64,000 bases of DNA from Candidatus Paceibacterota bacterium (GTDB lineage Bacteria; Actinomycetota; Actinomycetes; Nanopelagicales; Nanopelagicaceae): the NCBI GenBank assembly GCA_035530615.1, contig DATKUL010000003.1, positions 1 to 64,000 on the forward strand. The letters are read 5' to 3'. A program made the translations under genes and the position numbers. Position 1 is the stretch's first letter. The number at the start of each line of letters is the position of its first letter. Shown here piece after piece: positions 1 to 17,637 of this stretch. The notes below the pieces were generated by a model. It saw only the letters and a list, made by a program, of their open reading frames with translations. It was not told the DNA's origin and ran no database searches.

Positions 1-136
1 CCGTTAATTAATAGGGGTTAATTCGGCGCCGTTAATTAATAGGGGTTAATTCGGCGCCGTTAATTAATAGGGGTTAATTCGGCGCCGTTAATTAATAGGG
101 GTTAATTCGGCGCCGTTAATTAATAGGGGTTAATTC
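1..136. repeat. 28-bp tandem repeat, about 4.9 copies, hairpin-forming
   Basis: Exact copies start at 1, 29, 57, 85 and 113; the last stops after 24 bases. No mismatch is visible between copies. Each unit contains TTAATTAA and TAGGGG, and units meet at GGCGCC. Across a unit, CGCCG pairs with CGGCG and AATTAA pairs with TTAATT, with a 2-base bulge and a TAGGGG loop, so every copy can form its own hairpin. The array touches the first base of the window, so its true length is unknown and the edge could be an assembly break caused by the repeat. No reading frame is evident in it. Confidence 0.95.
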
Positions 137-211: not shown

Positions 212-245
212 TGCAAAAACCCCTACCCATGATCTCGGGTAGGGG
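212..245 (-). terminator. Rho-independent terminator
   Basis: Perfect 9-bp stem CCCCTACCC/GGGTAGGGG (220-228 with 237-245), 8-base loop, followed on the minus strand by five Ts. It ends transcription coming from the tRNA-Arg side. Confidence 0.8.
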
Positions 246-505
246 CACGAATTACATTGCCTGGCTGTCAAAGCGAAGATTACACCCAACCTGGGTTAGG
301 AAAACATCCCACACGCCACTCTGTGATATCGCACGCTATCGTGCGATAGGAATAGTCACCTCCCTCACGAGGTTGGGCAACCCCCCGTCTAGGTAACACG
401 GGGGGCCGTAAATACCGGACAGCGTGTTCCGGCCCAAGAAGGGTCTAAATGTCCGATTTTCATCGGGGATTGGTGGCGAAATGGTGCCCACTTTTGGCCT
501 GAACC
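212..505 (-). ncRNA. Candidate structured non-coding RNA downstream of tRNA-Arg
   Basis: No credible coding frame covers this stretch, but the minus-strand RNA is densely structured. In transcript order: a hairpin CCGAT-GAAA-ATCGG with a GNRA-type loop (453-466); an outer stem TTGGGC/GCCCAA (431-436 with 373-378) enclosing CCGGA/TCCGG and the strong hairpin CCCCCCGT/ACGGGGGG; ACCTC/GAGGT; ATCGCAC/GTGCGAT; and finally a 9-bp terminator hairpin followed by TTTTT. I do not see hallmark sequences of tmRNA, RNase P RNA or SRP RNA. It may be cotranscribed with the tRNA-Arg that lies immediately upstream. Boundaries and existence as an RNA are inferred from base pairing only. Confidence 0.4.
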
Positions 506-507
506 GG

Positions 508-580
508 TGCGCCCGGAGGGACTCGAACCCCCAACCTTCTGATCCGAAGTCAGAAGCTCTATCCGTTGAGCTACGGACGC
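508..580 (-). tRNA. tRNA-Arg (anticodon TCG)
   Basis: Complete 73-nt cloverleaf on the minus strand. Acceptor stem GCGTCCG/CGGGCGC has one G-T pair, the T arm contains GGTTCGAGTCC, and the anticodon stem TCTGA/TCAGA carries the loop CTTCGGA, giving anticodon TCG for CGA codons. The discriminator is A and CCA is not encoded. It lies between the terminator of the secreted-protein gene at 697-1248 and the structured RNA candidate. Confidence 0.95.
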
Positions 581-696: not shown

Positions 697-1248
697 TTAC
701 TTTGACGATCCCAATCCGTTGGGTGAACCTGCGGCCCATACATACTTGATGTGGTCGGGGTCCATCGCTTTATCGGAGATGACTTCATAGTTGCCCCATA
801 GGGAGTAACCGCCATCAACCCAGTAGGAACTGTTTTCGCCGGCGGAACCCACCCAAATTATTTTGATGTGTTCGCTCCAGCCGCTTCCGTCTTTAACGTT
901 GCCATTCCATTCATTGGTATCCCAAGCACCCGCACAGAAGGCAGGATCGTTGTAACCATTCGCATTGCAGGCATCCCACGCAGCATTCCACTTCATTACT
1001 AAGTGGTCATTTGCATAAGTTGGGTCGCCCCATACCTTTCCATTAAGAACCTTGTCCACGCCGTCAGCCGGGCCAGAGAAAATTCTGGCGCTGTAGTTAT
1101 ATCCATATTGATTGAAACCGCCAGCTGCTGATGCCTGTGGCAATACGCTACCGAGTAGAGCAGCGCCCGCGAGTGAAGCTATTGCCAGAGACTTAAATCC
1201 AATTTTGTTGCCTCTTACTTGCTTGAAACTGTCGTCACGATTCGACAT
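697..1248 (-). CDS. Small secreted protein of unknown function
   Basis: 183-residue protein. The start at 1248 is chosen because AAGGAGGAT lies 5 nt upstream; the frame is open further 5' but no good site precedes those starts. Residues 1-25 are basic and polar, then a hydrophobic stretch rich in Ala and Leu ends in QASA-AGG, a good signal peptidase I site. The mature part (about 140 residues) is rich in Trp, Gly, Asn and Tyr, with two Cys (around the motifs DACN and FCAG) that could form a disulfide, and the repeated style W-x-N-x-W. I do not recognise an enzyme family. It is a single-gene unit with its own terminator. Exported location is well supported; function is unknown. Confidence 0.85.
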   Translation of the reverse strand: MSNRDDSFKQVRGNKIGFKSLAIASLAGAALLGSVLPQASAAGGFNQYGYNYSARIFSGPADGVDKVLNGKVWGDPTYANDHLVMKWNAAWDACNANGYNDPAFCAGAWDTNEWNGNVKDGSGWSEHIKIIWVGSAGENSSYWVDGGYSLWGNYEVISDKAMDPDHIKYVWAAGSPNGLGSSK

Positions 1249-1310
1249 TCGATCCTCCTTAGGGGGTATCTGTACCCTAGCGGCAGAGCCTGCAATTCGG
1301 TAGATATCTC

Positions 1311-1336
1311 CAATTAAAAGAATCAATTAAAAGAAT
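1311..1336. repeat. 13-bp tandem duplication
   Basis: CAATTAAAAGAAT occurs twice head to tail (1311-1323 and 1324-1336) in the intergenic region between the secreted-protein gene and the ABC exporter. It is AT-rich and could be an upstream promoter element or a simple slippage duplication. Confidence 0.8.
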
Positions 1337-1383
1337 CTAGGGCTATCCCGTCATGTCCTACTCGGAAGTTAGACTTCCTGACT

Positions 1384-2310
1384 ATGTCGGTGAATTTGAT
1401 TGAAGTACGTGGACTTACAAAAAAGTACGGTGATTTCGTCGCTGTTGACGGAATTGACTTCAGCGTACGGAAAAGTGAGTCTTTTGGGCTACTTGGTCCC
1501 AATGGAGCTGGTAAGTCGACGACCATGCGGATCATCGCCGCTACATCACAACGCACCTCAGGTGATGTTCTAGTTCTTGGCAAAGATCCCGAAAAGGAAG
1601 GACCGCAGATACGCGCTCACCTTGGAGTGGTGCCACAGCAAGATAATCTGGATATTCAATTGACTGTGACTGAAAACCTCTACATCTACGGTCGCTACTT
1701 TGGTCTTTCAAAGAAGTTCGTCAAATCAAAAATCAATGACCTTCTCGAATTCGCCCAACTTGAAGAGAAACGCGACACCAAGGTTGAAGCGCTCAGCGGC
1801 GGTATGAAGCGCCGACTTACGATTGCTCGTTCACTTGTCAGCGAGCCGGACATACTTATTTTAGATGAGCCCACAACTGGTCTCGATCCGCAAGCGCGGC
1901 ACATTCTCTGGGATCGACTTTTCCGACTTAAAGAGGATGGAATAACTCTCCTCATCACGACCCACTACATGGACGAAGCCGAACAACTCTGCGACCGATT
2001 GATTGTGATGGATAAGGGCAAGATTATGGCGGAAGGCAGTCCCGCTGCATTGATCAAGAAGTACTCGACAAAAGAAGTACTTGAAGTTCGTTTCGGCTCC
2101 AACAGAAATGCCGAAATGGCAGCGGCAATGGAGCAACTCTGCGAGCGCATTGAAGTCTTACCTGATCGCATTCTTCTCTACACGGAGGATGCCGAAGAAG
2201 TGCTCGAAAATATTGTCGGGGCGGGACATCACCCAAATACATCGCTGGTGCGAAGGAGTTCCCTGGAGGATGTTTTCTTGCGTCTAACCGGCAGAAGTTT
2301 GATCGAATGA
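1384..2310 (+). CDS. ABC-2 type exporter, ATP-binding protein
   Basis: 308-residue cytoplasmic ATPase that powers the two membrane proteins encoded directly downstream. Walker A GPNGAGKST lies near residue 38, the Q-loop in VPQQDN near 83, the signature LSGGMKRR near 138, Walker B ILILDEPTTG near 157, and the switch His in LLITTHYMDEAE. This set and the roughly 80-residue C-terminal extension are typical of the DrrA/NodI group, which exports drugs, lipids or polysaccharide-type molecules. No clear Shine-Dalgarno precedes the ATG; TAGACT ends 8 nt upstream and may be a -10 box of a nearly leaderless transcript. The substrate cannot be told from sequence. Confidence 0.92.
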   Translation: MSVNLIEVRGLTKKYGDFVAVDGIDFSVRKSESFGLLGPNGAGKSTTMRIIAATSQRTSGDVLVLGKDPEKEGPQIRAHLGVVPQQDNLDIQLTVTENLYIYGRYFGLSKKFVKSKINDLLEFAQLEEKRDTKVEALSGGMKRRLTIARSLVSEPDILILDEPTTGLDPQARHILWDRLFRLKEDGITLLITTHYMDEAEQLCDRLIVMDKGKIMAEGSPAALIKKYSTKEVLEVRFGSNRNAEMAAAMEQLCERIEVLPDRILLYTEDAEEVLENIVGAGHHPNTSLVRRSSLEDVFLRLTGRSLIE

Positions 2311-16366: not shown

Positions 16367-16382
16367 GTGCGCCCGAAGGGAT
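16367..16382. repeat. Partial copy of tRNA-Arg 3' end (putative attachment site)
   Basis: The 16 bases GTGCGCCCGAAGGGAT are identical to 17564-17579, which is the 3' end (acceptor and T arm) of tRNA-Arg(ACG) plus one flanking base. Both copies have the same orientation, and the segment between them lies downstream of the tRNA 3' end and holds a single gene. This is the geometry left by site-specific integration into a tRNA gene. No integrase is present, so it would be a reduced remnant. Confidence 0.55.
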
Positions 16383-16472
16383 AAACCTGGGAAAGGGACA
16401 ATTTTTGAATTTCTTCATCACTGTAGGCGCCAAAAATGAAATCTAGATCAGTCAGCGGCTAATATATCCAGA

Positions 16473-17525
16473 CTATTTCTTGTACTTATAAGTGGTTGAT
16501 CGTTGTGCAGTCGGGACTTTGTATCCATTGCACTCAAATGGATAAGCAAGCACCCCTGGTTCAAACTTTGCTGTTGGGGAGAAGCACTTCCAATAGAAAA
16601 AAACATCCCCCTGGACCCAATGAAAATTAGGGTCCCCGTTTTTCACAACTGGACTAAATGAAACATCTCTAACTTTTATTTGGATAGGTGCCTGAGAATG
16701 GATACCCACACTTCCCGTGTATCCAATTAGTTGACCCCTGTTTAGCTTTCGTCCCAGCAGACCTTCGCAAGCTTTTGAGCCTTCAGTAGGTGGGGCCATA
16801 CCGTCGCTATCTGCATAAAACAATCGTCCAGCGGCTCTTGGTGTACCTGGGTAGAGCGGCGCATTGCTGCATAGTTTGTTCTTGTTCATGCCTCGAAGAA
16901 GTGGGGTGTTCTTAAGGTGGTAAATGCAAATTATTAGCCTAGGCCAGTCGCTACTGGTTGACTCAAAACAAAGCCTCAAATCATCAAATGGAGAGTACTC
17001 GACATTAACTTCACCAGTCTTTGGATCCGGACCTGGGTTTATCTTTGTGTCGGCACTTTGATTTTCGAAGCCGATGAGTTTCATGTTGATTGGAGCAAGA
17101 AGTGGCGAACCGACGGGAATTTCGACATTCACCCCAAGCTTTCCCGAATAGATGGGGATATCTGGTGTAAGACCAAACTTTGGTCCAAGCGTTACGAATG
17201 CTGGGTCCATGCCACCAAAAAAGACATCGCTATGATCGTTGATCCCTGCCATATCTTTAGGTGGAGACGTTAGAACTGAAACGATCTTCTTGGCCGAGGA
17301 GGGAGTTGGGTTCGGCGACGGAGCCGAAATCGCTTCTTTCCAAAACAACTTGCCGTTTACCAGAGTGCAGATTTGCAATTTATAATACTGGTTTGTCAGT
17401 GCCCCTATTTTGGTGCAAAAAATGGAAGGCATTTGTGTAGGCATGTCTTTTGCGAGCGCAGGAGTAATCGCCAATTCAGAAATCAGTAGAGTCACAACCG
17501 TAAAAACTAAGGATCTCAGTTTCAC
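16473..17525 (-). CDS. Secreted protein with degenerate M23-like domain (tRNA islet cargo)
   Basis: 350 residues, GTG start. A signal peptide ends PALA-KD, followed by the module FCTKIG...QICTLVNGKLFW and a short Pro/Ser linker. The main domain follows the LytM/M23 order: EIPVGSPLLAPINMKLIGF, LIICIYHLKNTP, NRGQLIGYTGSVGIHSQAPI. The usual G-H-x3-D and final HxH zinc ligands are not kept, so it is probably a non-catalytic wall-binding or regulatory relative. It is similar in order to the protein at 5813-7099. TAGAGT ends 6 nt upstream of the GTG and no ribosome binding site is seen. It is the only gene between the two copies of the tRNA-Arg 3' end. Confidence 0.75.
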   Translation of the reverse strand: MKLRSLVFTVVTLLISELAITPALAKDMPTQMPSIFCTKIGALTNQYYKLQICTLVNGKLFWKEAISAPSPNPTPSSAKKIVSVLTSPPKDMAGINDHSDVFFGGMDPAFVTLGPKFGLTPDIPIYSGKLGVNVEIPVGSPLLAPINMKLIGFENQSADTKINPGPDPKTGEVNVEYSPFDDLRLCFESTSSDWPRLIICIYHLKNTPLLRGMNKNKLCSNAPLYPGTPRAAGRLFYADSDGMAPPTEGSKACEGLLGRKLNRGQLIGYTGSVGIHSQAPIQIKVRDVSFSPVVKNGDPNFHWVQGDVFFYWKCFSPTAKFEPGVLAYPFECNGYKVPTAQRSTTYKYKK

Positions 17526-17537: not shown

Positions 17538-17564
17538 TCTATGTGATTACAGAATTACTACTAG

Positions 17565-17637
17565 TGCGCCCGAAGGGATTCGAACCCCTAACCTTCTGAT
17601 CCGTAGTCAGATGCTCTATCCGTTGAGCTACGGGCGC
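17565..17637 (-). tRNA. tRNA-Arg (anticodon ACG)
   Basis: 73-nt cloverleaf. Acceptor GCGCCCG/CGGGCGC is fully paired, anticodon loop CTACGGA gives ACG (read as ICG), and the T arm contains GGTTCGAATCC. Its 3' end is duplicated at 16367-16382. Confidence 0.96.

Follow-up and report, generated by a model that had tools for sequence, protein, structure and literature searches.

Additive genomic islands that gather small gene cassettes at tRNA genes are known from streamlined aquatic bacteria. According to the available text on 'Candidatus (Ca.) Actinomarinales', the additive flexible genomic islands of these actinobacteria have tRNA-fragment repeats and small cassettes at tRNA genes, expand from the tRNA side and hold cassettes common to different genera; the arrays treated here resemble them in all these respects (PMC7771536). 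The accessible part of a second source reports that the last 20 nt of a tRNA-Lys recur in the additive flexible genomic island fGI-2 of 'Ca. Methylopumilus', with, as here, no bona fide integrons among the small insertions, and characterizes tycheposons as cargo transposons of 4–200 kb with a xerD-type recombinase (PMC10872708). The window analyzed here covers 64 kb at the start of contig C3 from the genome G000 (2.16 Mb in three contigs), and the stretch in question runs from position 505 to about 212 on the minus strand, behind the gene for tRNA-Arg(TCG). Probably, a small mobile cassette has been inserted at this tRNA gene's 3' end, and the stretch is its anchor-side, non-coding end; the arrays to which such cassettes belong are a variant of the known tRNA-targeted additive islands.

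Searches for DNA related to the stretch covered 41 relatives together with 395 genomes from the class and 296 from the family, and the single extended relative was found in G005, a member of the same genus (C92 8525-8672; 148 nt at 78% identity). This match starts within a tRNA-Arg 3' end (GTTCGAATCCCTTCGGGCACACC) that is part of no tRNA gene and lies close behind atpC, a position equivalent to the tRNA anchor in G000. This lone 22-bp core behind atpC reads GGGCACAC in G005 and GTTCGAATCCCTTCGGGYGCAC in both G000 and G017, and the G005 copy led to the discovery of a site of about 36 bp, GATTCCCAGTGCCCAGTTTCATCCCTTCGGGCGCAC, first recognized from short similarities among the tRNA-Arg and atpC loci of these three genomes. 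The site consists of a cassette-derived half, GATTCCCAGTGCCCAGTTTC, which is not tRNA sequence, followed by a target-derived half, RTCCCYYCGGGCGCAC, which is the tRNA-Arg 3' end. A pattern search allowing up to 3 mismatches located it at 23 places in 8 of the 21 genomes of the genus, and the reversed pattern used as a control gave none. When the sites are aligned, conservation spans about 36 bp, and the sequences flanking them on either side are unrelated. A sequence-only model (E <= 1e-4) gave 67 matches spread over 16 of the 201 genomes of the family, some of them in two further genera, a lower bound as Infernal's stricter filters were in force; 16 of these matches lie in G000 and 17 in G017. 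At the tRNA-Arg(TCG) arrays of G000 and G018, the right half resembles tRNA-Arg(TCG) (GTCCCYYC), and elsewhere it is mostly ATCCCTTC, like tRNA-Arg(ACG), a distribution consistent with a right half that derives from the target. Outside the family, the exact pattern was absent from viral contigs, blastn found no match in phages, and in plasmids it gave two weak Sinorhizobium matches over 69% of the site. The idea that the site forms a conserved hairpin was judged unlikely by eye on 24 aligned sites.

Within the genus, series of cassettes follow either the tRNA-Arg 3' end or an isolated copy of its last 22 bp. The sites are spaced about 0.4–1.5 kb apart, and each interval encloses one or two genes. 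The cargo includes GNAT acetyltransferases, NUDIX hydrolases, NERD proteins, SDR and WG-repeat proteins, tRNA-Val genes, and toxin-antitoxin pairs (PIN with a ribbon-helix-helix partner; YefM-YoeB). The tRNA-Val genes (GAC, AAC) lie within arrays at L117 6971-7045, 8174-8247 and 17986-18060 and at L119 7490-7563, with similar copies in different arrays of one genome. At the tRNA-Arg(TCG) locus, the cargo comprises SIR2 and GmrSD proteins, each bracketed by tRNA-Arg or cassette sites; the SIR2-domain gene (L059 17743-18987) and the GmrSD/DUF262 gene (L059 15509-17311; PADLOC HEC-06) are defence-like. Individual cassettes are found again in other genomes, and their ends fall at sites. A NUDIX cassette of G005 and G000 could be aligned from site to site, being 0–1 bp off at both ends, and several other shared cassettes end within about 20 bp of sites at one or both ends. 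Moreover, one cassette, which carries a 250-aa gene and is terminated by a site in both genomes, follows an internal site in G000 and the intact tRNA-Arg(TCG) in G018; thus the internal site acts as an entry point equivalent to the 3' end of the tRNA.

The stretch itself adjoins the anchor and occupies the place of the first cassette. The order on the minus strand is tRNA-Arg(TCG) (580-506), the stretch, a terminator-like hairpin (246-219), and a satellite (1-136), which agrees with the preliminary description of this DNA in placing the locus between the tRNA gene and a strong terminator (Table 1). The first 125 nt are common to the first cassette behind the atpC anchor of G005. The two genomes diverge directly after a GC hairpin (GCCCCCCGTGTTACCTAGACGGGGG): an open reading frame (ORF) of 78–92 aa follows the shared stretch in G005, and no credible ORF precedes the terminator in G000. 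Since the satellite is present at both contig ends, C1 very probably joins C3 there, and the repeat probably caused the assembly break between them. The first cassette probably runs on through the satellite into C1, where the SIR2 gene, a site, the GmrSD gene, and a further site follow. These two sites beyond the satellite lie at C1 569514-569549 (degenerate; L059 17650-17615) and 567265-567301, and the degenerate one, beyond the satellite and the SIR2 gene, is most likely the right end of the first cassette. A tRNA-Asp(GTC) gene adjoins the satellite on the island (L059 19256-19329) and is possibly a decaying copy. In G017, the same genes flank tRNA-Arg(TCG) (those at window 698-2156 and the BNR gene of C1), yet the tRNA and the BNR gene are adjacent; G000 therefore carries at least 9 kb absent in G017, which is either a gain in G000 or a loss in G017. 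The locus thus has the marks of an additive island: insertion at the 3' end leaves the tRNA intact, with empty or different downstream DNA in relatives; the tRNA end is directly repeated at the far end, assuming that C1 joins C3; and cassettes with boundaries at the repeats are exchanged between genomes.

Table 1. Features of the window at and near the two tRNA-Arg genes.
Feature	Position	Strand	Remarks
tRNA-Arg(TCG)	506..580	(-)	ARAGORN; Rfam RF00005, 69.1 bits; intact; anchor of the cassette series
Anchor core GTTCGAGTCCCTCCGGGCGCAC	507..528	(-)	T arm and acceptor 3' strand; last 16 nt match the cassette site's right half
Anchor-side end of the first cassette	382..506	(-)	Common to the first cassette behind atpC in G005; 148 nt at 78% including the core
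GTGCCCACTTT, inverted copy of the cassette-derived half-site GTGCCCAGTTT	484..494	(+)	
GAAA-tetraloop hairpin	453..466	(-)	2 of 5 pairs broken in G005
GC hairpin GCCCCCCGTGTTACCTAGACGGGGG	382..405	(-)	Identical in G005 and in contig L061 of a proteobacterial metagenome-assembled genome (MAG)
Perfect 9-bp palindrome hairpin TATCGCACG-ATAG-CGTGCGATA	327..348	(-)	
Intrinsic-terminator-like hairpin, then TTTTT	219..246	(-)	First terminator behind tRNA-Arg on the minus strand
28-bp satellite GGCGCCGTTAATTAATAGGGGTTAATTC, TTAATTAA-rich	1..136		Continues at the end of contig C1 (L059 19662-19926)
Degenerate cassette site	16367..16391	(-)	Downstream of the second tRNA-Arg
tRNA-Arg(ACG)	17564..17637	(-)	Second anchor in the window

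At the second anchor of the window, a single gene (16473-17525) separates tRNA-Arg(ACG) from the site at 16391. The inverted half-site at 484-494 also occurs at the same place in G005 and is absent behind other anchors.

As a mechanism, a circular cassette with one site would recombine with the tRNA core, leaving an intact tRNA on the left and a composite site on the right. Repeated insertions would build the series, in which the newest cassette would adjoin the tRNA. The hairpins of the stretch would then be local features of this particular cassette: the terminator at 219 would stop read-through from the tRNA, and the GC hairpin would be part of a leader of the cassette itself. The full-length tyrosine recombinases (PF00589) found in G000 are a XerC-like and a XerD-like protein, two further matches being relics. 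Judged from the translations of their neighbors, the XerC-like gene lies beside that of ribosomal protein S2 and the XerD-like gene beside ParA-like and alanine dehydrogenase-like genes. All other members of the genus have the XerC/XerD pair or parts of it, and some have extra integrases; beyond XerC/XerD, no extra intact integrase was found in the array-rich G000 and G017.

Several points weigh against the cassette as described. The tRNA-Arg(TCG) array of G002 carries an ACG-type site, contrary to the simplest idea of a target-derived half. The satellite interrupts the assembly and makes the first cassette unreadable from end to end, the join of C1 and C3 is inferred from the shared satellite and the G017 synteny, and the right site at C1 569514-569549, which depends on this join, is degenerate and assigned by position. 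The inverted half-site, considered as a general left end, was rejected, as it occurs at only 2 of 45 anchors. Finally, no dedicated integrase was found in G000, where serine recombinases were not searched for.

In comparison with the island systems named above, the available text on 'Ca. Actinomarinales' differs from what is seen here in several ways: the present arrays have a composite site of about 36 bp with a constant cassette-derived half, long series, and lone copies of the tRNA end, their anchor is tRNA-Arg, and their cargo consists of defence-like genes, toxin-antitoxin pairs, and small enzymes (PMC7771536). Island fGI-2 of 'Ca. Methylopumilus' involves another tRNA in another phylum, and the accessible part of its description gives no conserved extra half-site (PMC10872708). 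Three features seem to go beyond both descriptions, as far as their available text goes: the constancy of the second half-site, the length of the series, and the presence of lone anchors. Like integron arrays (attI/attC), the present ones have one-gene cassettes in series, a short recombination-like site for each, and a fixed anchor; unlike them, they use a site about 36 bp long, one half of which is a tRNA end, and the search for an integron integrase was negative. The attC boxes RYYYAAC and GTTRRRY were absent on reading the 24-site consensus, and the XerC/XerD-like proteins of G000 scored 106 and 131 bits against a cut-off of 265 in the integron integrase model. We tentatively propose an integron-like, tRNA-anchored cassette system of actinobacteria, in which the tRNA-Arg 3' end might serve as an attI-like anchor, the composite site of about 36 bp as an attC-like mark, and the host XerC/XerD or a recombinase acting in trans as the agent of recombination. 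Tycheposons also have cargo adjoining tRNA genes in streamlined aquatic bacteria, but the units here are of about 0.4–1.5 kb and carry no recombinase.

The folding of the stretch had drawn attention to it. The minus strand at 505-205 folds at -127.1 kcal/mol against -101.3 ± 5.3 for shuffled sequences (z -4.84; 0 of 100 shuffles as good), and some structure is present in the plus strand as well (z -2.56). The excess stems from three perfect hairpins, at 404-382, 348-327 (the palindrome), and 246-219 (the terminator), with z-scores of -2.5 for 404-378, -2.9 for 377-320, and -3.9 for 249-205. In comparison, the fold of 505-405 is ordinary (z -1.14; 26 of 200 shuffles as good). The six hairpins of the preliminary description thus exist and the whole folds better than its shuffles, but only these three exceed chance. 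Its GAAA-tetraloop hairpin (466-453) is present, together with a 432-415 hairpin, in the ordinary part; since 2 of its 5 pairs are lost in G005, it is probably incidental. The long-range stem is also real, at coordinates one base away from those first given (TTGGGC 437-432 with GCCCAA 378-373); its 3' strand falls beyond the part that G000 and G005 share, and it was not seen in G005. Of the 25 pairs that lie wholly within the shared region, 7 are broken in G005, including 2 of 5 in the 432-415 hairpin and 3 of the 4 basal pairs of the GC hairpin. The sole two-sided change, from C-G to T-A, falls within the otherwise broken 466-453 hairpin, and conserved pairing with compensatory changes was not found in the one relative. 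The other tRNA-Arg 3' flanks examined in the genus are unrelated in sequence. Rfam searches (cmscan of the window and of 1-700, E up to 5) returned the tRNA and chance matches only, with no tmRNA, RNase P, signal recognition particle (SRP), 6S, or other covariance-model match, and the counterparts in G005 and L061 gave none in the relevant stretch. The earlier reading that no coding frame fits was borne out as well: no long frame is preserved against G005, the alignment containing a 1-nt indel and stops that differ between frames. A conserved structured RNA is not supported by these comparisons, because conservation is limited to one relative in which the structure is not preserved.

The GC hairpin alone is kept letter for letter between G000 and G005. 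Its 24 nt are identical at window 382-405, L033 8649-8672 (G005), and L061 6180-6203; only these 24 nt are copied in the contig of the MAG labelled as a proteobacterium, where the flanks are unrelated. In both G005 and L061, the hairpin precedes a small ORF, followed in L061 by a GIY-YIG/NUMOD3 gene; no kinship between the two ORFs was detectable, and no viral relatives of them were found. Exact and relaxed searches for the hairpin in viral contigs were negative, a search of genome contigs returned G005 and the one proteobacterial contig, and the stretch gave only short chance matches in phages, plasmids, and the genomes of the class. Neither the site core nor the hairpin loop sequence was matched in the papers searched. 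An IS21-type terminus, suggested by the AAATGGTGCCCACTTTTG repeat, was discarded: weak IS21-like matches occur in the genus, none with such an end.

Three other explanations can be set against the cassette end. A discrete small RNA of about 190 nt, starting near 405 inside the cassette with the GC hairpin at its 5' end, stopping at the terminator at 219 and acting in trans, would agree with the identity of the 404-382 hairpin in three genomes, the z-score of -3.3 for 404-250, and a loose -35/-10 pair (TTGGGC-17-TATTTA, 437-409) whose -35 box is kept in G005. However, a scan for consensus promoters found none, the putative start falls inside a run of C, G005 and G000 part directly after the hairpin, which in G005 and L061 precedes small ORFs rather than an RNA gene, and no other genus member has it; such an RNA is very improbable. 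A less far-reaching proposal is that the stretch is nothing more than a 3' trailer, removed from the tRNA-Arg precursor by RNase Z/E and ending at the terminator at 219. The shared strand, the first terminator behind the tRNA at this position, and the lack of a consensus promoter between them all agree with it, and the processed tail suggested earlier is possible in this sense. Nonetheless, a trailer leaves unexplained the 125 nt shared with DNA behind the lone G005 core, where there is no tRNA gene, and it misses the end of a mobile cassette; as the whole explanation, it is rather doubtful. As a statement on transcription, it is compatible with the cassette end.

The stretch could also be the end of a conventional integrative element, a prophage or an insertion sequence (IS), whose own integrase or transposase would lie beyond the satellite. 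The 3' ends of tRNA genes are the usual targets of integration, and in G013 (L009, L032) an integrase adjoins tRNA-Arg(TCG) in a conventional integrative element, with a 44-nt duplicated tRNA end on another contig. IS copies also lie beside tRNA genes in the genus, some IS-like ends with repeated TGCTTGACAG / GTCAAGCATCAG motifs standing directly behind them (L024, L081). Yet the sites of G000 are unlike the 44-nt duplication of G013, and XerC, XerD, and the two relics are all that G000 has to offer. In the last 20 kb of C1, neither an integrase or transposase nor a large tycheposon-like unit with a tyrosine recombinase beside the tRNA was found among listed and scanned ORFs, the satellite gap itself being unread. 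A conventional element is therefore unlikely, though somewhat less so than the discrete small RNA.

The cassette end replaces the supposed new structured RNA, a false lead, and raises the question of which recombinase moves such cassettes without a dedicated integrase. The defined site provides a sequence signature for locating these cassettes and their boundaries. Overall, the locus offers a testable account of how a small-genome bacterium may gain accessory genes, defence-like and toxin-antitoxin genes among them, through the successive addition of single cassettes at a tRNA gene.
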